Source: an uncultured Phascolarctobacterium sp. (GTDB taxonomy: Bacteria; Bacillota; Negativicutes; Acidaminococcales; Acidaminococcaceae). Taken from it: DNA of 64,000 nt. The first letter of the stretch is position 1. Every line of letters begins with the position of its first letter. The stretch spans positions 1 through 64,000 of the forward strand of contig CASDXO010000009.1 of NCBI GenBank assembly GCA_949285135.1, written 5' to 3'. Made by a program: the position numbers and the translations under genes. This document shows positions 44,150 through 63,880 of the stretch, piece after piece. The notes below the pieces were generated by a model that saw only the letters and a program-made list of their open reading frames with translations, was not told where the DNA came from and made no database searches.

Positions 44150-44170
44150 TTTTAGGAGGACAATAAGGAA

Positions 44171-45214: not shown

Positions 45215-45233
45215 AATAGTGTAGGGCAAAAGC

Positions 45234-46597: not shown

Positions 46598-46613
46598 CAG
46601 AAAGGGGTAAGCC

Positions 46614-48437
46614 ATGCTTAATAAACATCATATGGAACGTCTGCATATAATGTTCGTTATCTGCCTGGTACTGTTTGCTGTACTTATCGGGCGCATGGCC
46701 TATCTGCAGCTGTGGCGCGGAGATTATTATTCGCAGCAGGCAGACGGCAACCGTCTGCGGCAGTCGAAAATTATCGCGCCCCGCGGCCTTATTGTTGACA
46801 GTGAGGGACGCGAGCTGGTAAACAATCTGCCTGGGTATGCAGTGGCGCTGCAAAAACAGAGCAGTTACGACCCGATAATGCTGCAAAAGCTGAGTGAACT
46901 GCTGAATATTCCTCTTGCAGATATTAATAAACAGATTCAGGAAAGTAAGAATTATTATGAGCCTATCCGGCTGAAAAGCAATCTGTCGCCTGAGCTGGTG
47001 ACCAAGATAGAGGAAAACCGCAGAGATATGCCGGACGTGCTGCTGGAGGTGCAGCCCATCCGCAACTATCTCTATAAGGAATTTGCCGTGCATGCGCTTG
47101 GTTATGTGGGCGAGGTAAGTGCCTATGAGATAGAGCAGGGTCTCTTCAAGGACGTTACGCAGGGCAGTATTGTCGGTAAGGCTGGGCTGGAAAAAAGCTA
47201 TGACAAATATCTGCGCGGTGAAGATGGCGCATTTATGGAGGAAGTGGATGTTGCCGGTAATGTGGTCAAACATTTTGATACCGTACAGCCTGTACCGGGC
47301 AAGAATTTAAAGCTGACCATTAATTATGACCTGCAGATGACACTGGAAAAATTTATTGACCAGCATCTTGCGTATCTGCGCAGCTCAGGTCTTGCTCCTA
47401 ATGCGAGGGCTGCTGCTGTTGTGGCTATTGACCCGCGTAATGGTGCCGTACGCGCCATGGTCAGCCGTCCTGGTTATGACCCAAATCTTTTTGTACAGGG
47501 TATTTCTTTCGATGACTGGAATAAAATCAATGATGACCCCAATTATCCTATGAATAATAAAGTCATTACCGGTGAATATCCACCTGGTTCTACTTTTAAG
47601 ATTGTTACGGGCAGCGCGGCTTTTGAATTAAATAAAGTACGGCTGGACGAAATGATATATGACGGTGGTTTTCATCCCCTTGTACCCACCATGGGTAATG
47701 CTGAAGGCGAGGTGCTTGGCTGGCTGAGCTTTATCAAGGCGCTGGCCATGTCGGATAACGTATATTTTTACGAGCTGGGTTATCGTGTCGGTATCGATAA
47801 TATTGCCAAATATGCCGGTATTTATGGCTTTGGGCAACCCACGGGAATTGACCTTGTTGGTGAAAGTACGGGACTGGTGGCATCCAAAAAAGTTAAATGG
47901 GATATCTGGCATGAAGACTGGCGTTTAGGTGATACTTTCAATGCAGCTATCGGACAGGGCTTCAATCTGGCAACTCCCATGCAGCTTGCTGTAATGCTCA
48001 GCTGTGTGGCTAACGGCGGTATACGGTATCAGCCGTATCTGGTAGACAGTATTTTGAATGCTGACGGCAGCAGGTACATGACGCCGGAAAGAGCAGCAGG
48101 AAAACATATAGATATTTCTCAACGAACACTTGACTATATGCAGCAGGGTATGAGTGCCACGACTCAGGAGGGCGGTACCGCTTCTTACTTCCAGTCGCTG
48201 CCGCGCAAGGTAGCCGGTAAGACCGGTACGGCAGAAAACTCTCATGGACGTGACCACGGTTTGTTTGTTGCTTACGGACCGGTGGAAAATCCTGAACTGG
48301 TAGTTGTCGCTATCGTGGAGCAGGGTGGTTTTGGTACATCTGCCGCAGGCCCTATTGTTTATAAGGTTTTTGAAGAGCATTTCCGTGAAGAAGGGCTGCT
48401 GCCCCCGGAAAATGCACAGGACAGTAAAAAAGACTGA
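46614..48437 (+). CDS. mrdA: Penicillin-binding protein 2 (elongasome transpeptidase)
   Basis: A 607-residue class B PBP that cross-links peptidoglycan with RodA. One N-terminal transmembrane helix (about 11-30), the PBP dimerisation/pedestal domain (about 60-230), then the transpeptidase with active-site GEYPPGSTFKIVTG (STFK), the MSDNVYFYELG (SxN) motif and KTGTAENSHG (KTG). AAGGGG precedes the ATG. minC and minD, often found between mrdA and rodA in related genomes, are absent here. Confidence 0.95.
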   Translation: MLNKHHMERLHIMFVICLVLFAVLIGRMAYLQLWRGDYYSQQADGNRLRQSKIIAPRGLIVDSEGRELVNNLPGYAVALQKQSSYDPIMLQKLSELLNIPLADINKQIQESKNYYEPIRLKSNLSPELVTKIEENRRDMPDVLLEVQPIRNYLYKEFAVHALGYVGEVSAYEIEQGLFKDVTQGSIVGKAGLEKSYDKYLRGEDGAFMEEVDVAGNVVKHFDTVQPVPGKNLKLTINYDLQMTLEKFIDQHLAYLRSSGLAPNARAAAVVAIDPRNGAVRAMVSRPGYDPNLFVQGISFDDWNKINDDPNYPMNNKVITGEYPPGSTFKIVTGSAAFELNKVRLDEMIYDGGFHPLVPTMGNAEGEVLGWLSFIKALAMSDNVYFYELGYRVGIDNIAKYAGIYGFGQPTGIDLVGESTGLVASKKVKWDIWHEDWRLGDTFNAAIGQGFNLATPMQLAVMLSCVANGGIRYQPYLVDSILNADGSRYMTPERAAGKHIDISQRTLDYMQQGMSATTQEGGTASYFQSLPRKVAGKTGTAENSHGRDHGLFVAYGPVENPELVVVAIVEQGGFGTSAAGPIVYKVFEEHFREEGLLPPENAQDSKKD

Positions 48438-48449
48438 GAAAGGAATGCC

Positions 48450-49556
48450 ATGGATTTAAAACGCATTTTAAGAAATCTGGACTGGTGGCTTATTGGGGCA
48501 GTACTGCTGCTCATGGGCAGCGGCCTGCTTCTCATTGACAGTGCTACCCATTCGTTTGCTGTAAGCACGGGTAAGGCCTGGCATGTAGAAAGACAGGGCA
48601 TTTTTATGATTATAGCTCTGCTTTTGGCGGCGTTTTCCTTGCGCTTTGATTACCGGATTTTAAAAAATTATGCTACCCAGCTCTACATAGCCAATATTAT
48701 CCTGCTGGTAGCGGTAATGGCCTTCGGCATTTCGCAGCTGGGAGCGCAGCGCTGGATTCAGATTGGTTCTTTTTCCTTTCAGCCCAGTGAGTTTGCCAAG
48801 GTATTTCTGATTATCTGTCTGGCGTCTTTTATGGAAAAACGTATTGAATGGCTGGAAACCTTTAAAGATTATCTGCCAGTGTTTGCGTATATTCTGCTGC
48901 CGTTCGTGCTGGTTATGAAGCAGCCGGATCTTGGAACATCGCTGACCTTCATTGCTATTTTATTGGGAATGATTTTTGTCAGCGGCTTTAAATTTAACTG
49001 GTTTGCCAAACTGGGAGTTTTATTTGTTGCCATGCTGCCGGTATTCTGGATGATTTTGAAGGATTATCAGAAAAACCGTATCCGTGTTTTTTTAAATCCG
49101 GAGCTTGATCCTTTCGGCAGCGGCTATCATGTTATCCAGTCAAAAATTGCTATCGGCAGCGGCGGATTGTTAGGTAAGGGCTGGCTGGCAGGAACTCAGA
49201 GCCAGCTTAATTTTCTGCCGGAAAATCACACTGACTTTATTTTTGCCGTAGTGGGAGAAGAATTTGGCTTTATAGGCGCGGCCTTTATTATTCTGCTGTA
49301 TCTGATTATTATCTGGCGCGGTATTACTATTGCGCTTAATGCAGAAGATGATTTCGGTACGCTTCTGGCCGTGGGCGTAACTTCCATGTTTATGTTCCAC
49401 ATTATGGTAAATATTGGCATGACAGCCGGCATCATGCCGGTAACAGGCGTGCCGCTGCCGTTTTTAAGCTACGGAGTCAGCTCGCTGATAACTAATGTAG
49501 CGCTGGTAGCCATCTTACTTAATATCAAGCTGCGCGACCGCAAGCTGCAGTTCTAA
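48450..49556 (+). CDS. rodA: Peptidoglycan glycosyltransferase RodA
   Basis: A 368-residue SEDS-family polymerase with about ten helices. Signatures: GAQRWIQIGSFSFQPSEFAK, KQPDLGTSLTF, NHTDFIFAVVGEEFGFIGA and the C-terminal PVTGVPLPFLSYGVSS. It polymerises lipid II for lateral wall growth with the PBP2 encoded just upstream. It is followed 9 nt later by the radical-SAM pair, probably in the same operon. Confidence 0.95.
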   Translation: MDLKRILRNLDWWLIGAVLLLMGSGLLLIDSATHSFAVSTGKAWHVERQGIFMIIALLLAAFSLRFDYRILKNYATQLYIANIILLVAVMAFGISQLGAQRWIQIGSFSFQPSEFAKVFLIICLASFMEKRIEWLETFKDYLPVFAYILLPFVLVMKQPDLGTSLTFIAILLGMIFVSGFKFNWFAKLGVLFVAMLPVFWMILKDYQKNRIRVFLNPELDPFGSGYHVIQSKIAIGSGGLLGKGWLAGTQSQLNFLPENHTDFIFAVVGEEFGFIGAAFIILLYLIIIWRGITIALNAEDDFGTLLAVGVTSMFMFHIMVNIGMTAGIMPVTGVPLPFLSYGVSSLITNVALVAILLNIKLRDRKLQF

Positions 49557-49565
49557 GGAGGAAAT

Positions 49566-51425
49566 ATGGATAAAGACCTTACCATTGATATATTAAGCAG
49601 TGTACAAAAGCCTGCCCGCTATACAGGCGGTGAATTTGGCAGTATTGTTAAAAGTGCCGAAGAAACGGAAGTAACCATAGCTTTAGCTTTTCCTGATGTT
49701 TACGAAGTAGGTATGAGCTATCTCGGTTTTAAGATTCTGTATCATCTTCTTAATAAAGAACAGGGTGTAGCGGCAGAACGTGTTTACGCGCCCTGGATTG
49801 ATATGGAAGCCAAAATGCGCGAGCATAATATTTTGCTGCGTACACTGGAAACAGATAAGGCGCTGAAAGAATGTGATTTTGCGGGTTTTACGCTGCAATA
49901 CGAGCTTTCTTATACCAATATCCTCAATATGCTTGATCTGGGCGGAGTACCGCTGTTAAGTGCTGAGCGCGGCGAGGATGATCCTTTTGTTATCGTAGGC
50001 GGACCGTGTGTCTATAATCCTGAACCGCTGGCTGATTTTGTTGATTTTGCCATTATCGGCGAAGGCGAAGAAATCATGGTAGAGCTGATGGATTCCTACA
50101 AGGCATGGAAAAAGGCTGGCAGACCGGGAGGCCGTCAGGGCTTTCTGCAGGAAGCTGTAAAGCTGCAGGGAATTTATGTACCGTCATTTTACGAAACTGA
50201 ATATAACGAAGACGGCACTGTAGCTGCAGTGCGTCCGCTGACAGATAAGGCGCCGGCAGCGGTGCAGAAACGCGTAGTAAAAGACCTTAATACTGTTGAT
50301 TTTCCGACTGCACCGATTGTACCTTTTGGTGAAATAGTGCATGACCGTATTATGCTGGAGGTATTCCGTGGCTGCAGCCGTGGCTGCCGTTTTTGCCATG
50401 CGGGCATGGTCTATCGTCCGGTACGCGAACGTAAACCGGAAGTGCTGAAAGAGCTGGCGCGCAAGCTGGTGGATAATACAGGTTATAACGAAATCTCGCT
50501 GGTATCTTTGAGTACGGCGGATTATTCCTGTCTGGCACCGCTGATTCACGATTTGATTCATGAATTTAAAGAGGAAAAAGTAAGCGTTTCACTGCCGTCG
50601 CTGCGTATTGACAGTTTCAGTGTGGATATTGCCAAGGAAGTGCAGGCAGTGCGCAAAAGCGGTCTGACCTTTGCCCCCGAAGCAGGCAGTCAGAAGATGC
50701 GCGATATTATCAATAAGGGAGTGACGGAAGACGATTTGATGAATGCCGTGGGTGCGGCTTTTGCCTCCGGCTGGAGCAGCGTCAAGCTGTACTTTATGAT
50801 TGGTCTGCCCGGTGAAACAGATGAGGACGTACTGGCTATTGCTGACCTTGCCAAAAAGGTGCAGTATAAATATTATCAGGTAACCGGTAAGCGCGGTGCC
50901 AAGGTTACTGTCAGTGCTTCTTCCTTTGTTCCCAAACCTTATACGGCTTTCCAGTGGTTTGGTCAGAACGATTTGGAAACTTTGCGCCGTAAACAGTTCC
51001 TTTTGAAAGATGCGCTGAAAGTAAAAAATATCACCTTCCAGTATCATGATGCCAAAACCGGCATTATTGAAGCAGTCTTTGCCCGTGGAGACCGTCGTCT
51101 GGGCAAGGCGTTGCTTCTGGCATGGCAGAAAGGCGCACGTTTTGACGGCTGGAGCGACTGCTTCTCCTTTGAGCGCTGGCAGGAAGCCGTAGCGGAAGCA
51201 GGTCTTGATATTGATTTTTATGCTGCCCGTGAGCGCGGCATGGAAGAAGTTTTCCCATGGGAGCATATTCAGCCGGCTGTAGACCGCAGATTCCTGCGTC
51301 GTGAGTGGGAAAAAGCACAGGCGCAGCAGCTCACCCATGACTGCCGTCGCAGCAGCTGTACCGGCTGTGGTGTCTGCCAGAAGCTGGGTGTAGATATTAT
51401 TGACTGGGGACGGGGTGAAGCATAA
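49566..51425 (+). CDS. TIGR03960-family B12-binding-like radical SAM protein
   Basis: A 619-residue radical SAM protein. An N-terminal cobalamin-binding-like domain (about 30-190) is followed by the radical SAM barrel with the cluster motif GCSRGCRFCHAG (Cys near residues 270, 274 and 277), then a C-terminal region ending in a Cys-rich motif CRRSSCTGCGVCQKLG. The family always pairs with the DUF2344 protein downstream, and its reaction is unknown to me. Usually an RNase G gene follows the pair; here a terminator does. AAGGAGG precedes the ATG. Confidence 0.9.
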   Translation: MDKDLTIDILSSVQKPARYTGGEFGSIVKSAEETEVTIALAFPDVYEVGMSYLGFKILYHLLNKEQGVAAERVYAPWIDMEAKMREHNILLRTLETDKALKECDFAGFTLQYELSYTNILNMLDLGGVPLLSAERGEDDPFVIVGGPCVYNPEPLADFVDFAIIGEGEEIMVELMDSYKAWKKAGRPGGRQGFLQEAVKLQGIYVPSFYETEYNEDGTVAAVRPLTDKAPAAVQKRVVKDLNTVDFPTAPIVPFGEIVHDRIMLEVFRGCSRGCRFCHAGMVYRPVRERKPEVLKELARKLVDNTGYNEISLVSLSTADYSCLAPLIHDLIHEFKEEKVSVSLPSLRIDSFSVDIAKEVQAVRKSGLTFAPEAGSQKMRDIINKGVTEDDLMNAVGAAFASGWSSVKLYFMIGLPGETDEDVLAIADLAKKVQYKYYQVTGKRGAKVTVSASSFVPKPYTAFQWFGQNDLETLRRKQFLLKDALKVKNITFQYHDAKTGIIEAVFARGDRRLGKALLLAWQKGARFDGWSDCFSFERWQEAVAEAGLDIDFYAARERGMEEVFPWEHIQPAVDRRFLRREWEKAQAQQLTHDCRRSSCTGCGVCQKLGVDIIDWGRGEA

Positions 51426-52129
51426 TGAAATTGCGCATGCAGATTACCAAAGAAAAAGATATTCGTTTTATTTCACATCTGGAATATATACGTACCATAG
51501 AGCGCGCAATTCGTCGTGCCAGGATTCCGGCAGCATATTCAGAGGGTTTTAATCCCCATATGAAATTTTCGCTGGCTTCTGCCTTAGGCGTAGGTGTCGT
51601 AAGTTACGCGGAGTTTGTGGAAATTGAACTGGCAGAGCCTATGGAAGTGAAAGCAGCGGCTGTGGCACTGAGTAAAGCATTGCCGCGCGGCATCAAGGTA
51701 CTGGCTGCTGATGCAGTTGATACTCATCATGCTGCGTTGATGGCGCAGGCTGGCGGAGCAAGCTACAGGGTGACAGTACCATATGAAGGTGATGTAGGTG
51801 CGGCAGTAGAAGCATTTAATACATCAGAACAACTGCTGTTTAAAAAGGCGGCTCCCAAACGCAAGGAAAAGTTTAAAGAAATAGATGTTAAATTCTATAT
51901 TCCGCAGCTGGCGGTGCAGCAGCAGGATGGACAGACTGTCTTCACTTTTGACTGTAAAATTACTCCTGATGGCAGTATGAAGGCTGTGGATCTGCTCAAT
52001 GCGCTGAATGAGCATTACGCTTTGCAGCTACCGGTAGAAAAGGCAGATATTGAGCGTTTATCCTTATACAGGCTGGATAAAAAAGGCAAGAAATGTTCCA
52101 TGCTGGAAGCCGATGCTGTACTTATGTGA
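51425..52129 (+). CDS. TIGR03936-family radical SAM-associated protein (DUF2344)
   Basis: A 234-residue partner of the preceding radical SAM protein. Typical N-terminal segment LRMQITKEKDIRFISHLEYI and RRARIPAAYSEGFNPHMKFS. Its start overlaps the upstream stop by one base (TAATG). In some bacteria the two proteins are fused, which argues for a complex; the function is unassigned. Followed by a very strong terminator. Confidence 0.9.
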   Translation: MKLRMQITKEKDIRFISHLEYIRTIERAIRRARIPAAYSEGFNPHMKFSLASALGVGVVSYAEFVEIELAEPMEVKAAAVALSKALPRGIKVLAADAVDTHHAALMAQAGGASYRVTVPYEGDVGAAVEAFNTSEQLLFKKAAPKRKEKFKEIDVKFYIPQLAVQQQDGQTVFTFDCKITPDGSMKAVDLLNALNEHYALQLPVEKADIERLSLYRLDKKGKKCSMLEADAVLM

Positions 52130-52137
52130 ATTTAATC

Positions 52138-52177
52138 AAAAAGACTTCAGAAAATATTTTCTGAAGTCTTTTTTTAT
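52138..52177. terminator. Terminator after the radical SAM pair
   Basis: Perfect 30-nt palindrome (52141-52170) extended by A/T pairs to about 52138-52173, followed by more T. It works in both directions. Confidence 0.92.
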
Positions 52178-52365
52178 TTCATTTATTATGTGTTGCAGGT
52201 AAATATTTTTGCATAAGATTGGAAAACAAGTAAATCATTTGCAAATAACTGTTTCAGATAAGAAATATTTGAAATTATAGCATAATAGAGAGTATTTTTT
52301 GATAGTATTAATAAGAAAATAGAAAAAGAAAACTTATAATCTTAAAGATTAAATAAGAAAAAATA
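52178..52365. other. AT-rich intergenic region, no gene seen
   Basis: Very AT-rich DNA between the terminator and the promoter of the first cobalamin riboswitch. No feature is supported. Confidence 0.5.
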
Positions 52366-52394
52366 TTGACAAAGAAGAAAAACAAAGGTAAAAT
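52366..52394 (+). promoter_or_regulatory. Promoter of cobalamin module 1
   Basis: TTGACA (52366-52371), 17-bp spacer, TAAAAT (52389-52394). It starts the riboswitch RNA. Confidence 0.82.
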
Positions 52395-52434
52395 TTGCAA
52401 TATAGTAATTAATACAAATAAAATATAAGTTGCA

Positions 52435-52673
52435 TTTAAATTCAGGCGTAGTATTACTTAAAAGTTAAACAGGTGAAAATCCTGTACGGTCCCGCCGCTG
52501 TAATGCCACAATATACTTTAGTCAGTGACAAGTTTAGTCTGCTAAAGAGGGCAAAGTCAGTCAGACTGCCTGAAAAAGCTTTTAATTTCTGCGAGCGACG
52601 GAAAAAGCCGGTAAGACAGTAAGAGGTATATAGATTTGGCGCTTTTTCGCTTAGCAGCGGAAAGGCGCTTTTT
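52435..52673 (+). promoter_or_regulatory. Cobalamin riboswitch 1
   Basis: The conserved core AAACAGGTGAAAATCCTGTA and CGGTCCCGCCGCTGTAATG (B12 box type) is at about 52468-52507, with the later GAGCGACGGAAAAAGCCGG segment. The expression platform is an intrinsic terminator: stem 52639-52650 with 52657-52668 (12 pairs, two G-U), loop TTAGCA, then T5. Cobalamin binding should stop transcription of the TonB receptor and transporter genes downstream. Confidence 0.93.
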
Positions 52674-52750
52674 ATATCTGATTTAAAATTTTACCAGCGT
52701 ACTTTGCAGTGCTCAGTAAAATTTTAAAAATAAATAAGTGAGGTGTGCCA

Positions 52751-54928
52751 ATGATAACGTGGAAGAAAAGACTTTTGACAGCATCTGTCCTGTGTACGGT
52801 TGCCAGTGCCGGTTTTGTTATGAATGCCTGGGCAGCGCAGCAAGGTGCTGATTGTGATGAAGTGCTGGATAATGTACATTTGGCAGAAGTTATTGTTAAT
52901 GGTGAACGTTATATTGCCGGTGAGTATGTGAAGGCGACGAACTATAAGGGCATTTTGGGGCAACAGGATGCGATGACGACACCTTTAAGCGTAACGACGA
53001 TTTCAGAAAAAGCGGTAAAAGATTTCATATCTTCTACGGAGGGGCTGAGTTCACTGCTGAGCTTGGTGCCATCAGTGCAGAAAACCTATGATGCCGCTGT
53101 TGACGTAATCAATATCCGTGGTTTCCAGGATGACGGCAGAGCTTTTCTGATTAACGGGATTCCTGGTATGCAGGCCATGACACGGCAATCAACCAACTAT
53201 ATTGATTCTGTCGATATTATTGAAGGGCCGTCTACCGGTATTACCGGATCTTCTATTGAAGCAAAGGGCGGCGGTACAGTTAATATTAACAGCAAAAAAG
53301 CCGGTGATGAACCTGTCAGCAGGATAGGTCTGAAATATCATGCCAAAGGATCCCATGAAGAAACCGTTGATGTGGGCAGCAGATTCGGTGCAGACAGGCA
53401 GTACGGTATCCGTATCAATGCTTATAATACTGATGGTGAACGCGCTATTGAAAACTGGGATCTGAAGCAGAGAAATATCTATCTCAATTTAGACCAGCAT
53501 TCTGAACACAGTAACAGTAATTTCCTCATAGGCTATACATATACTGACAGTCAGGGCAGACCATATGGCCTGGCGGTCAGCAGAAATTATGTCGGCAGCA
53601 GTTTGCCTTCTGCTCCGGATGGAGAGACTAATTTTAATCCTTACTGGCGCAGAGATAAGAATACCAATTTGGTCATGACGTTTAATCATGAACAAAAATT
53701 GGGCGAGCATCTGAGTGCGTTCTTTAATGCCGGCCATTTTAAACAGGACTGGTATTACTATACTGGTTTTGATAAGACGCTGCTGAATGAAAAGGGTGAT
53801 TTTACTGCCGTATCTGACAATTATTCGCTGCTGGAAAAAAGAGATTATGCCCAGATAGGGCTGCGAGGCGATTTTACAACAGGTAATCTGAAACATCATT
53901 ATGCTGCAGGAGTGGACAGACAATGGCATTATTACGGCGGTGCCAGAGACTATCAGGAAGAAGATGGCTGGAGCGGCAATATTTATCATCCTGATACCGG
54001 CAGCTGGGCTCCACCCTCATTTGCTCAGTCCGACGCATATTATGGCAGTAAAGCCAGAATCAGTGGCTGGTCTGTGATGGACAGTATTTTTACCGAAAAT
54101 GAAAAACTGAACATTCTTCTGGGCTTAAACGGTAAGCGTATTAAGGAAGATGATTATGATGTGGATGGGTCCCACAGTGGCAGTGCCGGTAATTATTATG
54201 CCGTATCACCTTCGTACGGTATTAACTATGCTTTTACACCGGCTGTGGCAGTGTTTGCCAATCATACGGAAGAATTTGTGGAAGGCGAGGTAGTTGGCCC
54301 TAATTATACTAATAAAGGTGCGACTTTAAGTCCTTATAAGACCAAACAGAATGAACTGGGCGTGAAAGTTAAGACCGGAGACTTTTTCCATAAATTAAGC
54401 TATTTTGATATTCGTAAGGCCAATGGTGTGGATCGTTTTAATGACGATGGCACCAAGACTCGTGTTACAGACGGTGAACGCAGGCATAAAGGTCTTGAAT
54501 ACACTGCTGCCGGCAAGCTGCACGATAAGTGGAATCTGATTGGCGGTGTGATGTACCTGGATGCAACACAGCATACCGGCCTTAATCAGGATGGTTCGCC
54601 TAAAGCTTCGGACGGCAAACGTCCTAACGGCATTCCGGCCTGGACAGGAAACCTGGGTGTGGAATATCAGGCGGATGATGCTGTGTCCGGACTGCTGCGT
54701 GCTAATTATGTAGGTTCCAGCTATGTACTGGATGAGAAATACAGTGTTCCGGGCTATTTTACGATTGATGCCGGCATGAAATATAAAACGGCACTCAACG
54801 GTACGCCGGTAACAGTAAATGCCATGTGTTACAATCTGACGAATAAAAAATATTGGAGTGCTGCAGGCAATACATTAAATCTTGGCGGTCCCAGAACGGT
54901 AATGGTATCGGCAGAATTTGATATTTAA
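52751..54928 (+). CDS. TonB-dependent outer-membrane receptor (module 1)
   Basis: A 725-residue outer-membrane receptor. Signal peptide residues 1-25 (cleavage after AWA), plug domain about 55-190 (LSVTTISEKAVKDF, VINIRGFQDDGRAFLINGIPG in pieces) and a 22-strand-type barrel ending in AEFDI. The plug looks like that of siderophore receptors (FhuA/FpvA class, no N-terminal signalling domain) rather than classical BtuB. The cobalamin riboswitch and BtuFCD-like genes in the same unit argue for a corrinoid substrate. Start ATG 52751 follows GAGGTG; the GTG at 52745 is part of that site. Confidence 0.88.
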   Translation: MITWKKRLLTASVLCTVASAGFVMNAWAAQQGADCDEVLDNVHLAEVIVNGERYIAGEYVKATNYKGILGQQDAMTTPLSVTTISEKAVKDFISSTEGLSSLLSLVPSVQKTYDAAVDVINIRGFQDDGRAFLINGIPGMQAMTRQSTNYIDSVDIIEGPSTGITGSSIEAKGGGTVNINSKKAGDEPVSRIGLKYHAKGSHEETVDVGSRFGADRQYGIRINAYNTDGERAIENWDLKQRNIYLNLDQHSEHSNSNFLIGYTYTDSQGRPYGLAVSRNYVGSSLPSAPDGETNFNPYWRRDKNTNLVMTFNHEQKLGEHLSAFFNAGHFKQDWYYYTGFDKTLLNEKGDFTAVSDNYSLLEKRDYAQIGLRGDFTTGNLKHHYAAGVDRQWHYYGGARDYQEEDGWSGNIYHPDTGSWAPPSFAQSDAYYGSKARISGWSVMDSIFTENEKLNILLGLNGKRIKEDDYDVDGSHSGSAGNYYAVSPSYGINYAFTPAVAVFANHTEEFVEGEVVGPNYTNKGATLSPYKTKQNELGVKVKTGDFFHKLSYFDIRKANGVDRFNDDGTKTRVTDGERRHKGLEYTAAGKLHDKWNLIGGVMYLDATQHTGLNQDGSPKASDGKRPNGIPAWTGNLGVEYQADDAVSGLLRANYVGSSYVLDEKYSVPGYFTIDAGMKYKTALNGTPVTVNAMCYNLTNKKYWSAAGNTLNLGGPRTVMVSAEFDI

Positions 54929-54957
54929 GCATCTGACAGGGTGTATGTCAGAAGACA

Positions 54958-55992
54958 ATGATGAGAAAAATTAGTATCTTACTGACGGCAGGTATATTTC
55001 TCCTGATAATTTTTATCGGCTGCAGGCAGAAAGCCATATATCACAGACCTGTCAGACAGGATGATAATTATCAGCCGCATTATATTGAAAATGTGGTGGT
55101 GGATGATTACCATGTGACAGGTACAAACAGGCAGTACTTTCAGGCTGCGCCGCAAAGAGCGGTAGTAGTCGGAGAAACTTTGCTGGAAACCTTTGTGGCA
55201 CTGGGAATTGACGACAGTATTTTGCTGGCAGCAGGGTATGAGGGAACTTCTTTCAGACCGGAAGCACAATATGCTGACGGCTACGCCAAACTTTCAGTGC
55301 AGCGGGGTCTGCGTTTAAACAAAGAAACGGTACTGGCAATGTGTCCGGATTTCATTGCATGCGGACAGGTAGTTTTTACGGCTGATGCTCTGAGCAGTAC
55401 GGAGTTTTGGAATGAACGCAATATTAATACTTATTGCTCGGTAAATGCCAATTCTCCTACCAGCAGCAGGCAGCGCGAAACGTTGGAAGGCGAATATGCA
55501 TTTTTGCTGGGGTTAGGTAAGATTTACGGACGGGAAGAGCTTGCGGGTGGATTAGTTGCTGCCATGGAACGTGATTTGCAGCAACTGCAGCAGGCGGCGC
55601 AGGGAAGACGCAGGCCACGGGTACTGATAGTAGAAGACCTGGGGGGAACTCTGGTCAGTTATGGCCGCAACAAACTGGCCGGAAATATTTGCAGCAGGCT
55701 GCATGGTATTGTAGAAGAAAGCGATGCAACTATCGGTCTGGAAGATATACTGCGTATTGACCCTGATGTACTGTTTGCAGTAACAAGTGACGGTGAGCCG
55801 GAACAGGCTGCTGAACACTTTCGGCAGCTGCCGGCATTGCGCCATTGCCGATGCGTAAAAAATAACCAGGTGTATGGTATTGCCTTAAGTTATACCTATA
55901 ACAGCGCGGTAAAGACTGGTGCAGGTATTCGACGTTTGGCAGGTGGTATGTACCCTGATTTGTATAAGGAGCTTGACAAGAGAGATTTATGA
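54958..55992 (+). CDS. Corrinoid-type ABC transporter substrate-binding lipoprotein (module 1)
   Basis: A 344-residue periplasmic binding protein of the BtuF/FepB cluster. The lipobox is IFIGC (Cys near residue 22), so it is anchored to a membrane. The two-lobed binding fold shows VVVGETLLETFVALGI, AMCPDFIACG and, in the second lobe, VLIVEDLGGTLVSYG and IDPDVLFAV. A TonB receptor precedes and the permease overlaps its stop. It should deliver a metal-corrinoid to the permease; siderophore or haem binding cannot be excluded by sequence. Confidence 0.85.
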   Translation: MMRKISILLTAGIFLLIIFIGCRQKAIYHRPVRQDDNYQPHYIENVVVDDYHVTGTNRQYFQAAPQRAVVVGETLLETFVALGIDDSILLAAGYEGTSFRPEAQYADGYAKLSVQRGLRLNKETVLAMCPDFIACGQVVFTADALSSTEFWNERNINTYCSVNANSPTSSRQRETLEGEYAFLLGLGKIYGREELAGGLVAAMERDLQQLQQAAQGRRRPRVLIVEDLGGTLVSYGRNKLAGNICSRLHGIVEESDATIGLEDILRIDPDVLFAVTSDGEPEQAAEHFRQLPALRHCRCVKNNQVYGIALSYTYNSAVKTGAGIRRLAGGMYPDLYKELDKRDL

Positions 55993-57020
55993 CGACCAGA
56001 CGGAAATTTTTGCTACCCTTTTTATGTTTGCTGCTGCTTATTTCTGTGCCTGCTGCTGCGGCTTTCGGCAGTGTGAAAATAAGCCTACTGGAAGTAGGCA
56101 GGATAATCTGCAGCCCGTTGAACCTGAATACGGAAGCTGTCAATTTGGTGCACAGTGACATTATTTGGCTGCTGCGGCTGCCGCGTATTATTTTAGCAGC
56201 ATGTATTGGCGGGGGACTTTCTGTTTGTGGTGTTGTCATGCAGGCACTGGTCAGAAATCCTCTGGCTGACCCGTATATACTGGGCATTTCTTCAGGAGCG
56301 TCTCTGGGAGCGACACTGGCGATTTTGCTGGGGGCCGGGTCTGTCTTTGGTGCGTACAGTACAGGAATGGCTGCCGCCGCAGGCGCTTTTGCCGCTGCTT
56401 TGGGAGTGCTGCTGCTGGCAAATACGGGAGGCAGAGCCGGGTCGGTAAAACTGCTGCTGGCAGGTATGGCAATGAGCGCCTTATGTTCAGCGTTTGTCAG
56501 TTTCGTGGTGTATTGTGCTCATGATAAAGATGGCATACAGACGGTTACCTACTGGCTTATGGGAAGTCTGGCAAATGCCCGGTGGCAGAGTCTGGCGGTT
56601 ATCTGTCCTCTGTTTATGGCAGGCAGCATATTTTTTACGCTGCAGAGCAGAATTTTAAATTTGATGCTTGTTGGTGATGAGACTGCCATTACCCTGGGGA
56701 CAGACCTGCAAAGATACAGAAAGCTTTATCTTATTATAGTCGCAGTAATTGTTGGTTTTGCTGTTTATGCTGCAGGAATAATTGGTTTTGTAGGACTGGT
56801 TATCCCCCATATATTTCGTACGCTGATAGGAACGGAGCATAAAATGCTGATAATTGCGGCAACTTTAGGCGGAGCGGTGTTTCTCATCTGGGCAGATGTT
56901 TTATGCCGAATCATCCTGCCCGGTGCAGAACTGCCCATCGGTGTTTTGGTGTCGCTTATTGGTGCTCCCTGTTTCATTTATCTGATGCTGCGGCGAAATT
57001 ATGATTTTGGAGGCAACTGA
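55989..57020 (+). CDS. FecCD/BtuC-type ABC permease (module 1)
   Basis: A 343-residue type II import permease with about ten helices. Family motifs are RLPRIILAACIGGGLSVCG (pieces RLPRIILAA, GGGLSVCGVVMQALVRNPLA) and LGISSGASLGA, and the ATPase-coupling helix GFVGLVIPHIFRTLIG. Its ATG overlaps the binding-protein stop by 4 nt. The product forms the membrane channel of the BtuFCD-like importer. Confidence 0.92.
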   Translation: MTTRRKFLLPFLCLLLLISVPAAAAFGSVKISLLEVGRIICSPLNLNTEAVNLVHSDIIWLLRLPRIILAACIGGGLSVCGVVMQALVRNPLADPYILGISSGASLGATLAILLGAGSVFGAYSTGMAAAAGAFAAALGVLLLANTGGRAGSVKLLLAGMAMSALCSAFVSFVVYCAHDKDGIQTVTYWLMGSLANARWQSLAVICPLFMAGSIFFTLQSRILNLMLVGDETAITLGTDLQRYRKLYLIIVAVIVGFAVYAAGIIGFVGLVIPHIFRTLIGTEHKMLIIAATLGGAVFLIWADVLCRIILPGAELPIGVLVSLIGAPCFIYLMLRRNYDFGGN

Positions 57021-57021
57021 A

Positions 57022-57792
57022 ATGGAAATACTGACTGAGGCGGTGAAAATGTTTGCCGGCGGCAGGGAGATTTTACATGGCATTGACTTTGAACTGCGTG
57101 ATAAAGAGTTTGTGGGTCTGGTAGGACCGAATGGCAGTGGTAAAAGTACGTTTCTGAAATGTTTGTACAGGGTGCAGCGGCCAACCTCCGGTAAAGTGTA
57201 TTTTAACGGTCAGGATCTTGATGAGCTTTCTTATCGTGAAACGGCGCTGCAGCTGGCAGTAGTGGCGCAGTACAATGTTTGCAGCTTTGATTTTTCTGTG
57301 CTGGAAATAGTGCTTATGGGTCGTTCGCCATATAAAAATGTATTGGAAAGAGATAATGCTTCTGATATACACATAGCTAAGCAGGCTCTGGCTACAGTAG
57401 GACTGGAGCATTTGGCTGAGCGCAGATTTCAGACGCTGTCCGGCGGTGAGCAGCAGCGAGTAATTCTGGCAAGGGCTTTAACGCAGCAGCCTGAGTGTCT
57501 GGTGCTGGATGAGCCGACCAATCATCTGGATATCAAATATCAGCTGCAGGTAATGGATATAGTCAAAAGGCTGGAATTAACTGTAGTTGCAGCCATCCAC
57601 GATTTAAACATTGCTGCTATGTACTGTGACCGCCTGATAGTACTGTATGAAGGTGCCGTTGTACGGATGGGGACACCGGCTGAAGTACTGACAGAAGATT
57701 TTATCCGGGAAATTTATGGTGTACAAAGTACTGTCAGCACGTGTTCTGACGGGCAGATTCATATCAGATATAAGGCAGGGATGCAGCTGTGA
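57022..57792 (+). CDS. BtuD/FepC-type ABC ATPase (module 1)
   Basis: A 256-residue ATPase of the corrinoid/siderophore importer. Walker A GPNGSGKST (around residues 36-44), signature LSGGEQQRVILARAL, Walker B CLVLDEPTNHLD and the His switch AAIHDLN. The ATG at 57022 lies 9 nt after GGAGG; ATG 57001 overlaps the permease and is less likely. It overlaps the next gene by 4 nt. Confidence 0.93.
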   Translation: MEILTEAVKMFAGGREILHGIDFELRDKEFVGLVGPNGSGKSTFLKCLYRVQRPTSGKVYFNGQDLDELSYRETALQLAVVAQYNVCSFDFSVLEIVLMGRSPYKNVLERDNASDIHIAKQALATVGLEHLAERRFQTLSGGEQQRVILARALTQQPECLVLDEPTNHLDIKYQLQVMDIVKRLELTVVAAIHDLNIAAMYCDRLIVLYEGAVVRMGTPAEVLTEDFIREIYGVQSTVSTCSDGQIHIRYKAGMQL

Positions 57793-58130
57793 CAAAAATA
57801 GGCTTGCTGACATGCCTGCGTTCCAATGATGTATGCCCCAGGGTTGGGTGTTTGCAGGCGTTGGCTGCAAGAGAGGATTATTTTTCCGTATATGCAGCTC
57901 AGAAGATTAAGCTGGCGGCAGTCTGGACATGTCAGGGCTGCGATAACCTGGTGCTGGGTGATGAAAGTGCCCGGGCTGAAAAACTGCAGTGTGTACTGCA
58001 GTCCGGTATACAGGCAGTGCATATAGGATGCTGCTGTAAACGGGACGGCGTCTGGTGCCCTGAAATCAGAAATATTGCCTGCATTTTGGAGCAACATGGC
58101 ATAAAAGTAATCTGGGGTACACATAAATAA
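57789..58130 (+). CDS. CGGC-domain protein in corrinoid operon
   Basis: A 113-residue cysteine-rich protein of the CGGC type (putative metal-binding domain). Cys positions: LLTC near residue 9, VCPRVGC near 16-21, WTCQGC (the CGGC motif with Gln in place of the first Gly), IGCCCK and WCPEI, and a C-terminal GTH. Start GTG overlaps the ATPase stop. Its place as the last gene of a riboswitch-controlled corrinoid import operon suggests a role in metal or corrinoid handling after import, but function is unknown. Confidence 0.75.
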   Translation: MTKIGLLTCLRSNDVCPRVGCLQALAAREDYFSVYAAQKIKLAAVWTCQGCDNLVLGDESARAEKLQCVLQSGIQAVHIGCCCKRDGVWCPEIRNIACILEQHGIKVIWGTHK

Positions 58131-58204
58131 ATTTTATGTACTGAACAGTCAGGACGATAAAAGCAGGTCAGCTTAATAATGAAGCATGACTGCAGTAAAA
58201 ATTA

Positions 58205-58458
58205 AATAAGATAACATTTCAGATGTAGCAATACTTAATAGATAAACAGGTGAAAAGCCTGTGCGGTCCCGCCGCTGTAATGCAGAGAAAGTCTTAATTA
58301 TGTCACTGGGATAACCGGGAAGGCAAGACGGACGATGAAGCAAAGCCAGAAGAACTGTCTGAAATGATGCTGGGTGTTTCTGCGAAAGACGGAAAAGGCA
58401 AGAGAAATAGTATGAAGGCGCTTTTTTGCATGTTTGCAGAAAGGCGCTGATTTTTTTG
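58205..58458 (+). promoter_or_regulatory. Cobalamin riboswitch 2
   Basis: Second core with AAACAGGTGAAAAGCCTGTG and CGGTCCCGCCGCTGTAATG at about 58245-58283, almost identical to riboswitch 1. The platform terminator is 58418-58430 with 58435-58447 (13 pairs with two G-U, loop TGTT) followed by TGA and T7. It controls the second TonB receptor module. The flanks diverge from riboswitch 1. No clear promoter was found in 58131-58204. Confidence 0.93.
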
Positions 58459-58516
58459 CCTGAATATTGCTGAATAGCAATGCATAGTGAAAGTAAAACA
58501 TAAGAGAGGTGCGCAA

Positions 58517-60769
58517 ATGGCAATTTTAGGAAAAAAGGCTTTTATTGCATCTGTTTGTTGTGCAATTGCCGGTGCAGGTTTTGTGATAAATGTTCATGCT
58601 GCAGAACAGAATGCAGCAGATAAGGTTATGCAGCATAATTTGGAAGGTATTATTGTTGAAGGTAATGCAGACGTACTGCCGGGAGGGTTTTTAAGCAATA
58701 AGACGAAGGTTGGTATTTTTGGTGATAAAAACATTATGGATGTTCCATATTCTGAAATGAGCATGACATCTAAAAGTTTGGCAGTTTTTGATGATCCAAG
58801 TCAGCCGTTGGCGAATGTGTTGCAAAATAATCCTTCTATCAGAGTAAGCTCCAGTTCACCAATGTATACTGATTTTAGTATGCGTGGAATAAATATGAAT
58901 GGTAACCATATGATGCTTAATGGCATACCAAGCTTATTTTATCAATTTACAACACCGCCTTCCCATATAATTGACAGAATTGATATTACATCTGGTCCTA
59001 ACGCGGGAGTAAATGGTGTAAGCATGTCAAATAATGGTACGAATAGTGGTTCTACAGCAGCTCCGGGAACGATTAATATCATAAGTAAGAAAGCAGAAGC
59101 AACACCTGTAACAAGATATACTCAGACATTTTCAGGCAGAGGTAATTATGGCGAGTACATAGATGTTGGAAGAAGATTTGGCAAAGATAAGGAATGGGGC
59201 GTGCGCTTAAATACAGAATATATGCAGGGAGGACTATCCTTGCCAGGTGCGGAAAAGAATGCGAAAAATATTTTTGTGAATATAGATCATCATAATGAAC
59301 GCAGTAATACTAACTTGTTGGCCGGGTATTTTGACTTACGTGTCAATGGCGGGCAAAGGTGGTTCCAGTTTAAACCGTCGGCAGATTATAAAAGTCAGGC
59401 GTTGCCTGCAGTTCCTGATTCAAAGAATAATTATGATTTTGATGGCACTACCAAATATGTGCATGGCTACATTATGACATTAAATCATGAACAAAAAATT
59501 ACGGATGACTGGTCATGGTTTGCCAATTTTGGACAGTCCAGAAGAAGCGGCAATAAAGATAATCAGGGTTCTGCAATAAAATTTGATCAAGATGGCAATT
59601 TTGTCAGCAATAGATTTAATCAGCAAAATGAGGCTGGAAAAAATGTTTATGCACAATTAGGTGTAAAAGGTAATTTTGATACTGGAAAATTAAAACATAA
59701 TGTTTCTTTTGCAGCTGACAGATCATGGGCAAGATATTGGAATAATGCAAAATCATACAGTCCAGGCAGCAGTGGTATTACCGGGAATCTGTATGAAGGA
59801 ATAATATTTCCGGATGACTATAAATTACAAAGTTTTGGAGCGGCTAAGCCGGAATGGGAAGAAACTAATGTCGGAATTACTTTAGGAGATAATCTGGAAT
59901 ACGGAAAATTGCAGGTATTGCTGGCAGCTTCGCGCAAACACGAAGATTTTAATAATTTAAAAGGAAAGGTAAAGCATACCAATAATAATATCCTGCCAAC
60001 TTATGGCATCAGTTATAAGCCGGTAGATAATTTGGCTGTATATGCCGGACATACTGAAAGTTTTTCCAGAGGATTAGTTGTATCCGGTGAATATGCTGGC
60101 GATAAAAACAATAATAAAAAATATAAATATGTCAATGATGGTGCTACCTTGGAACCGGTGAAAAGTAAACAAAATGAAGTTGGCATTAAATATGCAAATG
60201 CCGGCCTTTTAACTACTTTAAGTTATTTTGCTATTGATGAAGCCAACAGAATAGATTCTGTGGCCGGACTTAGTGTAGATGGAGATACCTTATACAAAAA
60301 AGTTCAGGACGGCAAGAACAGTTATAAGGGTTTGGAGCTTACCGTCAATGGTAAAATAGCAGAAAAGTGGAATACCACAGGTGGTTTGCTTTATCTGGAT
60401 GCGCAAAGAGAACATACTAAAAATGGATCAAAAGATGGTATGTTTGTTACCGGTGTATCCAGATGGAGCAGTGTAGTTGGTTTGGAGTACAAACCAAGTG
60501 ATGACTGGGGTATAGTTGGCAGAGCGGTATGGAATGATAAAGCTTTTGTTGAGGATACAAGCGGTAAAGGTAAATATGAAATTCCGTCACATCTTACCTT
60601 TGATTTGGGAGTAAATTATAAAACACAAGTCAATGCAATGCCGGTAAAATTCAGTGCAATGTGCTATAACGTAACTAACAGAGATTACTGGATGGGAAGA
60701 GGCGGCAGTTCGACTTTCGGCTTATCAATGCCAAGAACATTTATGTTATCAGCTGCTTTCGATATTTAG
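58517..60769 (+). CDS. TonB-dependent outer-membrane receptor (module 2)
   Basis: A 750-residue receptor related to the one in module 1 and of the same siderophore-receptor-like class. Signal peptide residues 1-26 (after NVHA), plug with DVPYSEMSMTSKSLAVF and MRGINMNGNHMMLNGIP, barrel ending AAFDI. Shared segments with receptor 1 include MTLNHEQKI/MTFNHEQKL and the SKQNEVGIK/TKQNELGVK region. Codon use is clearly more AT-rich than module 1. GAGGTG precedes ATG 58517; the frame open from 58487 is longer than needed. Confidence 0.87.
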   Translation: MAILGKKAFIASVCCAIAGAGFVINVHAAEQNAADKVMQHNLEGIIVEGNADVLPGGFLSNKTKVGIFGDKNIMDVPYSEMSMTSKSLAVFDDPSQPLANVLQNNPSIRVSSSSPMYTDFSMRGINMNGNHMMLNGIPSLFYQFTTPPSHIIDRIDITSGPNAGVNGVSMSNNGTNSGSTAAPGTINIISKKAEATPVTRYTQTFSGRGNYGEYIDVGRRFGKDKEWGVRLNTEYMQGGLSLPGAEKNAKNIFVNIDHHNERSNTNLLAGYFDLRVNGGQRWFQFKPSADYKSQALPAVPDSKNNYDFDGTTKYVHGYIMTLNHEQKITDDWSWFANFGQSRRSGNKDNQGSAIKFDQDGNFVSNRFNQQNEAGKNVYAQLGVKGNFDTGKLKHNVSFAADRSWARYWNNAKSYSPGSSGITGNLYEGIIFPDDYKLQSFGAAKPEWEETNVGITLGDNLEYGKLQVLLAASRKHEDFNNLKGKVKHTNNNILPTYGISYKPVDNLAVYAGHTESFSRGLVVSGEYAGDKNNNKKYKYVNDGATLEPVKSKQNEVGIKYANAGLLTTLSYFAIDEANRIDSVAGLSVDGDTLYKKVQDGKNSYKGLELTVNGKIAEKWNTTGGLLYLDAQREHTKNGSKDGMFVTGVSRWSSVVGLEYKPSDDWGIVGRAVWNDKAFVEDTSGKGKYEIPSHLTFDLGVNYKTQVNAMPVKFSAMCYNVTNRDYWMGRGGSSTFGLSMPRTFMLSAAFDI

Positions 60770-60779
60770 TTAGAATTTG

Positions 60780-60805
60780 CAGGAGAGAGCCTCGGCTCTC
60801 TCCTG
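60780..60805 (+). other. GC-rich hairpin without T run, between receptor and permease
   Basis: Twelve pairs (60780-60791 with 60794-60805; the innermost must open). No T run follows, so it is not a classical terminator. It may protect the receptor mRNA 3' end and so set receptor-to-transporter ratio. Confidence 0.65.
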
Positions 60806-60886
60806 TGTTCATAAAAATATACCTGAAGCATTCATTGCATCAGCTATCAGGATATTTTGAAATCATCTGTATACTGGGAGAACTAT

Positions 60887-61939
60887 ATGTTGCAGGAAAA
60901 CTATCGCAGAACAAGGTACAAAAAATGTGTTTTAATCTTAGCTGCATTTATATTTACTTTAATATCAGGCTATATTTTTACTACTGTTGGCATGAAACAG
61001 GTGCATATCTGGCAAGTATTCACTGCACTTGAGAAATTTTTTTCTGGAACCATTAATACTGGTTCTGACGAGGCTGTAAATAAAATTATTCTTTTGCTCA
61101 GATTACCCAGAATATTAATGGCTGTTTTAGCCGGTATCGGACTGGCTGTTGCAGGAGCAGTAATGCAGTCTGTAACAAGAAATTATTTAGTCAGCCCTTT
61201 TACTTTGGGCATATCTGCAGCTGCAGCTTTTGGAGCATCACTTTGTATTGTTTTTGGTACTGGCATGTTTTTTCAAAGTGATTTTGGAATTATTTTTTGT
61301 GCCTTTATTTCTGCATGTATCTGCGGGCTGATTGTTTATGGCGTTGCTCAAAAGACCGGTCTGAAGCCAAGTTCTATAGTATTGGTCGGTATAGCGTTAA
61401 ATTATCTGTTTAGCGCCATGACTGCGACCATCGAATTTTTTGCCAAAGAACATAAGCTGGAAGCTGTTGTACAATGGACTTTTGGTTCATTTAATCGGGC
61501 TGACTGGGATTATATTTTGATAACACTGGCTATCGTAGCTTGTGGTATATATATAATGATGTATTATTGCCTGCCACTGAATGCCATAGCTGGGAACGAT
61601 GATGAAATGGTAAAAAGTTTTGGGGTAAATCCGGAAAAAGTAAGGTCTGTATGTGGCATCATATCAGTATTAATTACCTCTGCAATAATAAGTTTTACTG
61701 GTGTTATTGGTTTTGTAGGGCTTATCGCACCACATATGGCGCGCATTATCATTGGCAATGATCATAGATTTTATATTTTATTTTCAGGGATTATTGGTGC
61801 AATGCTTTTACTGGTGTCGGACACAATAGGTAAATTTATTTTATATCCAGTAAATATTCCTGTTGGGATTATTATTTCTTTCCTGGGGGTTCCATTGTTC
61901 ATACACTTGATTCTTACAAAAAGGAATGGTTTGGAATAG
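60887..61939 (+). CDS. FecCD/BtuC-type ABC permease (module 2)
   Basis: A 350-residue import permease, about ten helices. Motifs: LLRLPRILMAVLAGIGLAVA (pieces), AVMQSVTRNYLVSPFTLGIS and IGFVGLIAPHMARIIIGNDH. I chose ATG 60887 with GGGAG 6 nt upstream over the TTG frame from 60857. It overlaps the next gene by one base (TAGTG). Confidence 0.92.
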   Translation: MLQENYRRTRYKKCVLILAAFIFTLISGYIFTTVGMKQVHIWQVFTALEKFFSGTINTGSDEAVNKIILLLRLPRILMAVLAGIGLAVAGAVMQSVTRNYLVSPFTLGISAAAAFGASLCIVFGTGMFFQSDFGIIFCAFISACICGLIVYGVAQKTGLKPSSIVLVGIALNYLFSAMTATIEFFAKEHKLEAVVQWTFGSFNRADWDYILITLAIVACGIYIMMYYCLPLNAIAGNDDEMVKSFGVNPEKVRSVCGIISVLITSAIISFTGVIGFVGLIAPHMARIIIGNDHRFYILFSGIIGAMLLLVSDTIGKFILYPVNIPVGIIISFLGVPLFIHLILTKRNGLE

Positions 61940-62982
61940 TGAGAAAAATTATTTCTGCTTGCTTGTTTTTACTGATATTTCTTATCTGTGGGTGCAGTAA
62001 TAACGAAGCAAAGATTAATAAAGAAGTTAAAATCAAAGACAGTATTGGAAGAAATATTGAGATAACATTACCCTTGTCAAAAGTAGTTGTGGCAAACGGT
62101 TATAATGCAGAACTGATTAATGCCATAGGAGCATTGGATGCGGTAATTGGTGTTGATTACAGGATTTTTCAGGATCAGGAGGAGTACAAGGGTAAATTTA
62201 CTTATGATCAGGTTATAGGCAAAAGTCAGCAAGAGCTGAACTATGAAAAAATTATTGAATTAGCTCCGCAGGCAGTAATTTTAACAGGAAATGGCAGATG
62301 GGAAGAAGCAGAAAGAAAACTGTCCGGATTTGGGATAAAGGTTATCGTCATTAACAGTTATTATACTGATGAATTTTTTGATAACTGTAAATTGATGGGC
62401 AGGCTCTTTGGCAGGGAAAAGCGTGCTGAAGAAATATGCCGATATTTTCAAAAACAGTTGCAATATGTGCAGGATAATGTAAAAAACGCTCCGTTAAGAA
62501 CTGTTTATTTTGAATATCGCAGGGAGGGCAATACTACTGTTCCGGGTGATTATTTTTATAATATGATTAAATATTCGGGAGCAAAAAATATTTTTGAAGA
62601 TGCCAAAAGTGTTTCGGTAAACAGTGAAAGTATTATCCTGAGAAATCCTGCTTATATTGTCAAAGTAGGCGAGAATAACATTTCGGCTAAATACATACCT
62701 CCTACAGAAACCGAAATGCAGGCAAGAAAGCAGGAAATAGTCAGCCGTGCCGGATGGGATAGCATAGATGCAGTAAGAAATAACCGTATTCTGCTTCTGT
62801 CGCATTTTTTGCACGGAGGAGCTTCTAAAATAATCGGTACTATGTATATCGCAAAATTTATTTATCCTGAGTATTTGCCGGATTTGTACCCGGAAGAGGT
62901 TTTTAACAAATGGCTGCAATATCAAGGGTTAGATTATCTTGAAGGGCATACATATCCTAAATTTCAGTTAAGAGACAGGTGA
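61939..62982 (+). CDS. ABC transporter substrate-binding lipoprotein (module 2)
   Basis: A 347-residue periplasmic binding protein with lipobox LICGCSNN (Cys near 19). First-lobe segments KIKDSIGRNIEITLPLSK and VVANGYNAELINAIGALDAV are typical of the corrinoid/siderophore-binding cluster. Start is GTG, the only option that keeps the lipobox, and overlaps the permease stop. The protein is quite different from the module 1 binding protein, so the modules are not a simple tandem duplicate. Confidence 0.87.
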   Translation: MRKIISACLFLLIFLICGCSNNEAKINKEVKIKDSIGRNIEITLPLSKVVVANGYNAELINAIGALDAVIGVDYRIFQDQEEYKGKFTYDQVIGKSQQELNYEKIIELAPQAVILTGNGRWEEAERKLSGFGIKVIVINSYYTDEFFDNCKLMGRLFGREKRAEEICRYFQKQLQYVQDNVKNAPLRTVYFEYRREGNTTVPGDYFYNMIKYSGAKNIFEDAKSVSVNSESIILRNPAYIVKVGENNISAKYIPPTETEMQARKQEIVSRAGWDSIDAVRNNRILLLSHFLHGGASKIIGTMYIAKFIYPEYLPDLYPEEVFNKWLQYQGLDYLEGHTYPKFQLRDR

Positions 62983-62987
62983 GATAA

Positions 62988-63761
62988 ATGAGTCTGAAAG
63001 TTACGAATCTTTCCTTTGGATATGACAAGAAGCGAAGGATACTAAGTGATATTTCCCTGGAAATACCGCAAGGAGAAATATTAGGAATTCTGGGGCCTAA
63101 TGGAACTGGTAAGACTACTTTTATTAAATGTCTTAACAATATCCATACGCCGGATGTGGGTGCAGTAAGCTATAACGGGCAATGTATAACAGATTTACGG
63201 CAGAAGGAAATTGCAAAAATTATTGCTTATGTACCTCAATATATAAATAATGTTTTTACAATGAATGTTATGGATACAGTTATGATGGGCAGGCTGCCCT
63301 ATACTGTCAAGGATTACAGTCAGCAGGATGAGGAGATTGTGTTTTCTGTTATTAAAAAGATGCATCTGGAACAATTTGCTTTCAGAAATATTAAAGAGAT
63401 AAGTGGTGGTGAAAGGCAAAGGGTATTTGTTGCCAGAGCTTTGGCTCAACAGCCAAAGATAATTATTTTAGATGAACCTACAAGTAGTTTGGATTTATAT
63501 AATCAGCTATTTATTTTGCATACTCTGACTAAATTAGCTAAAAAGAATAATATAACAATAATTATGACAATTCATGATTTGAATTTAGCTTCCATGTTTT
63601 GTGATAAGATTTTGATGCTAAAAGATACACATATTTTTGCGTATGGAACTCCGGAGAGTATTATTACTGCAGAAAATATATATGCAATGTACAAAGTAAA
63701 AACTGAAATTACTGCACCAGAACATTATAAGCATATCAGACTGTTAAAAAATTTAAGTTAG
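62988..63761 (+). CDS. BtuD/FepC-type ABC ATPase (module 2)
   Basis: A 257-residue ATPase. Walker A GPNGTGKTT (around residues 36-44), signature ISGGERQRVFVARAL, Walker B IIILDEPTSSLD, His switch MTIHDLN. It begins 5 nt after the binding-protein stop and completes the second importer. AT-rich codon use as in the other module 2 genes. Confidence 0.93.
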   Translation: MSLKVTNLSFGYDKKRRILSDISLEIPQGEILGILGPNGTGKTTFIKCLNNIHTPDVGAVSYNGQCITDLRQKEIAKIIAYVPQYINNVFTMNVMDTVMMGRLPYTVKDYSQQDEEIVFSVIKKMHLEQFAFRNIKEISGGERQRVFVARALAQQPKIIILDEPTSSLDLYNQLFILHTLTKLAKKNNITIIMTIHDLNLASMFCDKILMLKDTHIFAYGTPESIITAENIYAMYKVKTEITAPEHYKHIRLLKNLS

Positions 63762-63880
63762 ATATCTTTTTACGATGGAACATATAATGTCAGCAGGCAG
63801 ATTTTATATTTATTAAGTCAAATATGAATACTGAGCCATCAGTATCTTCATATATAAATATTATCAAGGAGGATAGAAAC

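Follow-up and report, generated by a model that had tools for sequence, protein, structure and literature searches.

The 64,000-nucleotide stretch of DNA analysed here (the window) comes from an uncultured Phascolarctobacterium sp. and carries two modules, in each of which a cobalamin riboswitch precedes a siderophore-type TonB-dependent receptor and an ABC importer. Siderophore-type importers shut off by a B12-sensing RNA probably import corrinoids or complexed cobalt at low B12. Control of import by B12 is well supported, and we consider it probable that the two modules, repressed by B12 and driven by TonB, take up a cobalt-bearing cargo that supplements endogenous synthesis.

Domain matches in both modules confirmed what the earlier note had described, namely a TonB receptor, a binding lipoprotein, a FecCD permease and an ATPase behind each riboswitch, with permease and binding protein in a different order in the two modules. 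All genes lie on the forward strand. Module 1 starts with TonB-dependent receptor 1 (52751-54928; Plug and barrel; ATG at 52751 preceded by GAGGTG; listed start GTG at 52745), followed by substrate-binding lipoprotein (SBP) 1 (54958-55992; PF01497; closest solved structure 4ljs), FecCD permease 1 (55989-57020; PF01032, 297 bits; BtuC/F420-0-like in NCBIfam), ABC ATPase 1 (57001-57792; PF00005) and, as last gene, a CGGC-domain protein (57789-58130; PF08821, 71 bits). The latter gene had been missed in the earlier note. It was rejected as a B12-specific marker, as 126/300 genomes have one and the genome itself has a second copy downstream, at C9:65563. In module 2, TonB-dependent receptor 2 (58517-60769; Plug and barrel; ATG at 58517 preceded by GAGAGGTG; listed start GTG at 58487) is followed by FecCD permease 2 (60887-61939; PF01032, 280 bits; FhuB-like in NCBIfam; listed TTG start at 60857), SBP lipoprotein 2 (61939-62982; PF01497; YiuA/NiuB-like model) and ABC ATPase 2 (62988-63761; PF00005). 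The two receptors have low mutual similarity, as do the two SBPs.

The leader of module 1 has a sigma-70-like promoter (52366-52394, forward strand; TTGACA-17-TAAAAT, 11/12 consensus positions), which the earlier note had not mentioned. Riboswitch 1 (52427-52587, forward strand), with a poorly conserved distal arm, is a weak match to RF00174 (47.3 bits), and riboswitch 2 (58204-58376, forward strand) scores 92.3 bits; both exceed the gathering score of 31.5 bits. Each aptamer is followed by the P13 hairpin of its expression platform (UUUCUGCGAGCGACGGAAA, 52586-52604, and UUUCUGCGAAAGACGGAAA, 58377-58395, both on the forward strand), which contains the conserved CUGCGAnnGACGG motif in both leaders. 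The terminators reported in the earlier note were also recovered, as 14-pair hairpins at 52638-52669 (followed by a T-run) and 58417-58448 on the same strand. The riboswitch cores had been called near-identical. This holds for a 37-nt core, which differs at 2 positions, but not for the whole aptamers, which are 63% identical. Riboswitch 2 is nearer to a third riboswitch of the same genome (72%) than to riboswitch 1.

In both leaders, P13 and the terminator have complementary strands: the 3' strand of the former can form a duplex with the 5' arm of the latter (-9.8 and -8.7 kcal/mol), so that two mutually exclusive states are expected: P13 with the terminator, or an antiterminator. Cobalamin riboswitches work by a known L5-L13 mechanism, and because of this mechanism B12 is predicted to switch the modules off. 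With cobalamin bound, the aptamer would dock on L13, P13 would be held, the terminator would form and transcription would end. When B12 is scarce, pairing between the P13 3' strand and the terminator 5' arm would let RNA polymerase continue past each leader. On the forward strand before riboswitch 2, no promoter comparable to that of riboswitch 1 was seen. Since no terminator was found between the two modules, module 2 may be transcribed from the module 1 promoter, and the two riboswitches may act in series on a single transcript.

The two receptors of the window are the only full TonB receptors in the genome; a third candidate, at C13:60541, was rejected as a partial 25.5-bit match in a 305-aa frame. 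The genome has one ExbD, encoded in a single exbB-exbD-tonB operon. The leader of exbB (L010:14273-14409, forward strand) resembles the AdoCbl-type family RF01482 (31.3 bits against a gathering score of 50; E 0.001 over 801 bases), and the exbB-exbD-tonB set probably has its own AdoCbl riboswitch. We infer that the module receptors use this single ExbB-ExbD-TonB set. Once expressed, and driven by it, they would deliver a cobalt-bearing compound to the periplasm, for uptake by the lipoprotein SBP and the FecCD-type ABC importer.

A strong cobalamin riboswitch with a terminator was also observed at L010:13808-13976 (reverse strand; C7:23807), divergent from exbBD-tonB and 460 bases upstream of methylmalonyl-CoA mutase. 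In genome G036, the equivalent position leads a receptor operon, so this riboswitch may be a relic rather than a control element of the mutase. A TTGTTA-18-TATAAT promoter seemingly lies between it and the mutase.

The earlier note had proposed that the organism relies on imported corrinoids, a claim that the gene content does not support. The host genome (1.89 Mb, 13 contigs, Acidaminococcaceae, the family of Phascolarctobacterium and Succiniclasticum) contains the anaerobic B12 genes cbiD, L, F, G, H, J, ET, A, B and cobD, as well as cbiC, cobA/BtuR, cbiP, cobU, cobT and cobS, in a search that covered these genes. The cobU cluster is led by a riboswitch, and so is the cbi operon, where the riboswitch stays below the gathering score. 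Given these genes, the organism most likely makes its own B12 and does not depend on import, and the modules would add to this production at times of cobalt or corrinoid shortage. The cobUTS operon on C8 (L009:8212-10806) encodes two CobT homologues, the first closest to Sporomusa ovata ArsA (292 bits) and the second short and ArsB/CobT-like. This pair hints at phenolyl cobamides.

A genome of the same genus, G058, has no receptors, no module ABC genes and no ExbD. Its locus follows positions 44001-52673 of the window in an 84.6% alignment that runs through the promoter (both hexamers included), riboswitch 1 and the terminator. Past terminator 1 come about 190 bases, after which the alignment resumes at 63867; the receptors, ABC genes and ExbD are thus missing together while an orphan riboswitch 1 stays. 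The 190-base piece holds the last codons of a CGGC gene (CKQDGACCPGFTNIACSLERYGIKLIRVMHR*, read by eye from the sequence). This stump and the orphan riboswitch weaken horizontal gain as the sole reading for the modules. For module 1 the scar points to loss in G058, whereas either a gain by this lineage or a loss from G058 would account for module 2. Since G058 keeps CbiD, a riboswitch-led cbi operon and a riboswitch-led Nik-like operon, B12 synthesis and basic cobalt supply probably do not depend on the modules. A further weak cobalamin riboswitch of the host genome (28 bits, with P13 and terminator; L012:6730-6925, forward strand; C10:8729) is 88.6% conserved in G058. No downstream gene was seen on its own strand, and it could be an orphan or a small-RNA leader.

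Both receptors align over nearly their full length with BauA and FemA, their nearest solved relatives, and the profile search agrees on a siderophore-receptor type. For TIGR01783 (cut-off 223.5), receptor 1 scored 227.5 and receptor 2, with 203.2, fell just short. Neither receptor had a BtuB match in NCBIfam, and BtuB chains stayed unmatched even at E 10. The receptors had been described as FhuA/FpvA-like and not BtuB; their siderophore-like nature and the missing BtuB match agree with this, but among solved structures BauA and FemA come closer than FhuA/FpvA. Both receptors cluster with known ferric siderophore receptors, one half of what the earlier note had set against its own proposal. As a sign of the other half, an iron response, Fur boxes were searched for and none matched with up to 3 mismatches, although such boxes may differ in Negativicutes. 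The known cargoes of the BauA/FemA receptor family are ferric siderophores.

A quick maximum-likelihood tree of 78 receptors, with SH-aLRT support only, placed both receptors inside a 37-row clade of 34 Negativicutes rows and 3 from Deltaproteobacteria. Riboswitch-bearing loci account for 26/34 of these Negativicutes rows, for three more Selenomonas/Veillonella rows outside the clade and for none of the proteobacterial rows outside it, in counts based on an RNA model trained partly on the same loci; moreover, a riboswitch may share a locus with a receptor that it does not control. Linkage between receptor and B12 riboswitch recurs in Acidaminococcaceae, Selenomonadaceae, Sporomusaceae and Veillonellaceae. 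In Selenomonas, orthologues of module 2 (L093 and L099) and loci of the module 1 type (L103 and L104) all have the same riboswitch linkage, and in S. infelix and S. massiliensis the module 2 orthologues are preceded by RF00174 riboswitches. Receptor 1 grouped with FecCD-linked receptors (93% SH-aLRT). The closest sisters of receptor 2 (99% SH-aLRT) adjoin Nik/Opp-type ABC importers, and the SBP beside one of them (Succiniclasticum) matches NikA. The ABC genes of module 2 are nevertheless orthologous to those of the Selenomonas modules, whose receptors form another subclade; because of this discordance, module 2 looks like a receptor-ABC mosaic.

Several variants were observed among the relatives. 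The closest homologue of receptor 1 (65%), in G054 (L070:367-2546), occupies two frames and is followed by CGGC, SBP, permease and ATPase genes; the split would be either a frameshifted gene or an assembly error. Phascolarctobacterium sp. S34M_St_78 (L071:737-10775, also L102) and Succiniclasticum ruminis (L067:1665-15842, also L090) carry cobalamin-riboswitch-led operons with one or more TonB receptors, a FecCD or Nik/Opp ABC, two nitrogenase component-1-like proteins and a NifB-like radical SAM protein. Among the papers listed by a literature search, none contains both "cobalamin riboswitch" and "nitrogenase-like". A search for nitrogenase-like genes in the system of the present genome found none, its one 18-bit match being at chance level. 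Finally, several further cobalamin riboswitches stand in a row in Pelosinus (L085:12390-13117, L091:17862-18588 and L086:3581-6873), downstream of a receptor/Nik operon and ahead of very long ORFs.

None of the module proteins reached the Btu-specific curated cut-offs (BtuC, BtuF, BtuD). Permease 1, for which the nearest models are BtuC and F420-0, scored 246 bits against the BtuC cut-off of 334, and SBP 2 scored 42 against the BtuF cut-off of 234. BtuF entries were absent from the Foldseek top 50 of both SBPs. The SBP 2 model was nearest to iron and nickel chelate SBPs, among them YiuA with bound iron-siderophore and H. pylori HP1561 (CeuE; Ni-His entry 4ls3), which we take to be NiuB. This ranking was rejected as proof of cargo, since many SBPs for siderophores, heme and metals gave TM values of mostly 0.5-0.75. 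The unreached Btu cut-offs, the missing BtuF and BtuB matches and the ferric siderophores known for the receptor family all count against the preferred reading, a cobalt-bearing cargo imported under B12 repression, as does the weak score of riboswitch 1.

Within that preferred reading, a corrinoid cargo is indicated by the riboswitches, by the nearest models of permease 1 and by the FecCD-type ABCs, the class that carries B12. A cobalt chelate is indicated by the Nik-linked sisters of receptor 2, by the SBP 2 model, by the absence of CbiM from the genome and by the precedent of Helicobacter NiuBDE. For module 1, we lean towards a corrinoid; for module 2, corrinoid and cobalt chelate are about even. 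A metal complex under B12 regulation, which the earlier note had offered as an alternative, is live and gaining ground for module 2.

It is possible, if doubtful, that both modules import corrinoids, whether different cobamides or cobinamide versus cobamides, as the earlier note had suggested. The B12 riboswitches on both modules, the dissimilar receptors and SBPs, the precedent of paired BtuB systems in Anabaena (PMC10878165) and the unusual endogenous cobamide hinted at by the ArsA-like and ArsB/CobT-like pair agree with such a division, but module 2 is closer to metal/siderophore systems than to Btu.

We regard as rather unlikely that both modules import complexed cobalt, through a BauA/FemA-type receptor and a FecCD ABC, to feed B12 synthesis. 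The Nik/Opp-linked sisters of receptor 2, the YiuA and HP1561 matches of SBP 2 and the missing CbiM argue for it, as does cobalt transport by NiuBDE (PMC5140060). However, a separate NikABCDE-like operon at C1:185170, riboswitch-led, with an SBP matching nickel-type NikA models and no receptor alongside, is a more obvious cobalt importer than the modules and is kept by the module-less G058; moreover, permease 1 is BtuC/F420-like. CbiD is present in almost every genome that has a close receptor, but also in 263/300 sampled genomes of the class (88%). This background makes the co-occurrence weak, and it was rejected as proof of a cobalt role.

A broader idea, tentative and in our view improbable, is that siderophore-type receptors were recruited by B12 riboswitches for cobalt-chelate ("cobaltophore") uptake across the Negativicutes and were swapped between FecCD- and Nik/Opp-type ABCs, and that the nitrogenase-like and NifB-like enzymes in the operons of some relatives may process the cargo. 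That the modules are ordinary ferric siderophore importers placed under B12 control with their cargo unchanged would suit the receptor family and the iron-siderophore-bound YiuA match of SBP 2, but is very unlikely given the repeated riboswitch linkage in four Negativicutes families, the B12-type leader of exbBD-tonB, the lack of a Fur box and the little sense that a B12-switched iron supply would make.

The preferred reading, B12-repressed import of a cobalt-bearing cargo, has parallels in known systems. The modules share with BtuB-BtuFCD of E. coli and Anabaena a TonB receptor, a PF01497 SBP, a FecCD permease, an ATPase and B12-riboswitch control, but their receptors lie outside the BtuB family, their SBPs are not close to BtuF and their ABC genes stay below the Btu-specific cut-offs. 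To our knowledge, all known cobalamin receptors belong to the BtuB group. B12-riboswitch-controlled uptake through TonB receptors is already known for Anabaena BtuB1/BtuB2, where a cobalamin synthesis pathway has also been proposed (PMC10878165), and Zhang et al. noted that BtuFCD is hard to distinguish from siderophore transporters (PMC2667541). Among receptors of solved structure, those for acinetobactin (BauA) and mycobactin (FemA) are the closest; by contrast, the modules are controlled by cobalamin riboswitches, and neither a Fur box nor neighbouring genes for siderophore synthesis were seen. Helicobacter FrpB4/NiuBDE also combines a TonB receptor with a FecCD-type ABC, for complexed Ni/Co (PMC5140060). 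This combination is a weak discriminator, and the SBP 2 model adds a resemblance to HP1561; control is nickel-responsive in Helicobacter, whereas the modules have B12 riboswitches. Cobalt supply under B12 control is also found in riboswitch-led NikABCDE, treated by Zhang et al. as an exception to nickel specificity and predicted to import cobalt (PMC2667541). The present genome has one such operon at C1, but that system pairs an SBP of family 5 with a Nik-type ABC, whereas the modules are of FecCD type. A limited literature search, which is weak evidence, found no published account of a BauA/FemA-type lineage under B12 riboswitches in several Negativicutes families with ABC swapping.

In this genome, every full TonB receptor is part of the B12 regulon, and a congener lacks receptors and ExbD together; such a pair makes the proposed role easy to test. 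Annotation pipelines label receptors such as those of modules 1 and 2 "siderophore receptors". Should these receptors transport corrinoids or cobalt, the annotation of a group of Negativicutes genes would be wrong, and common gut bacteria would possess a second lineage of B12 or cobalt receptors.
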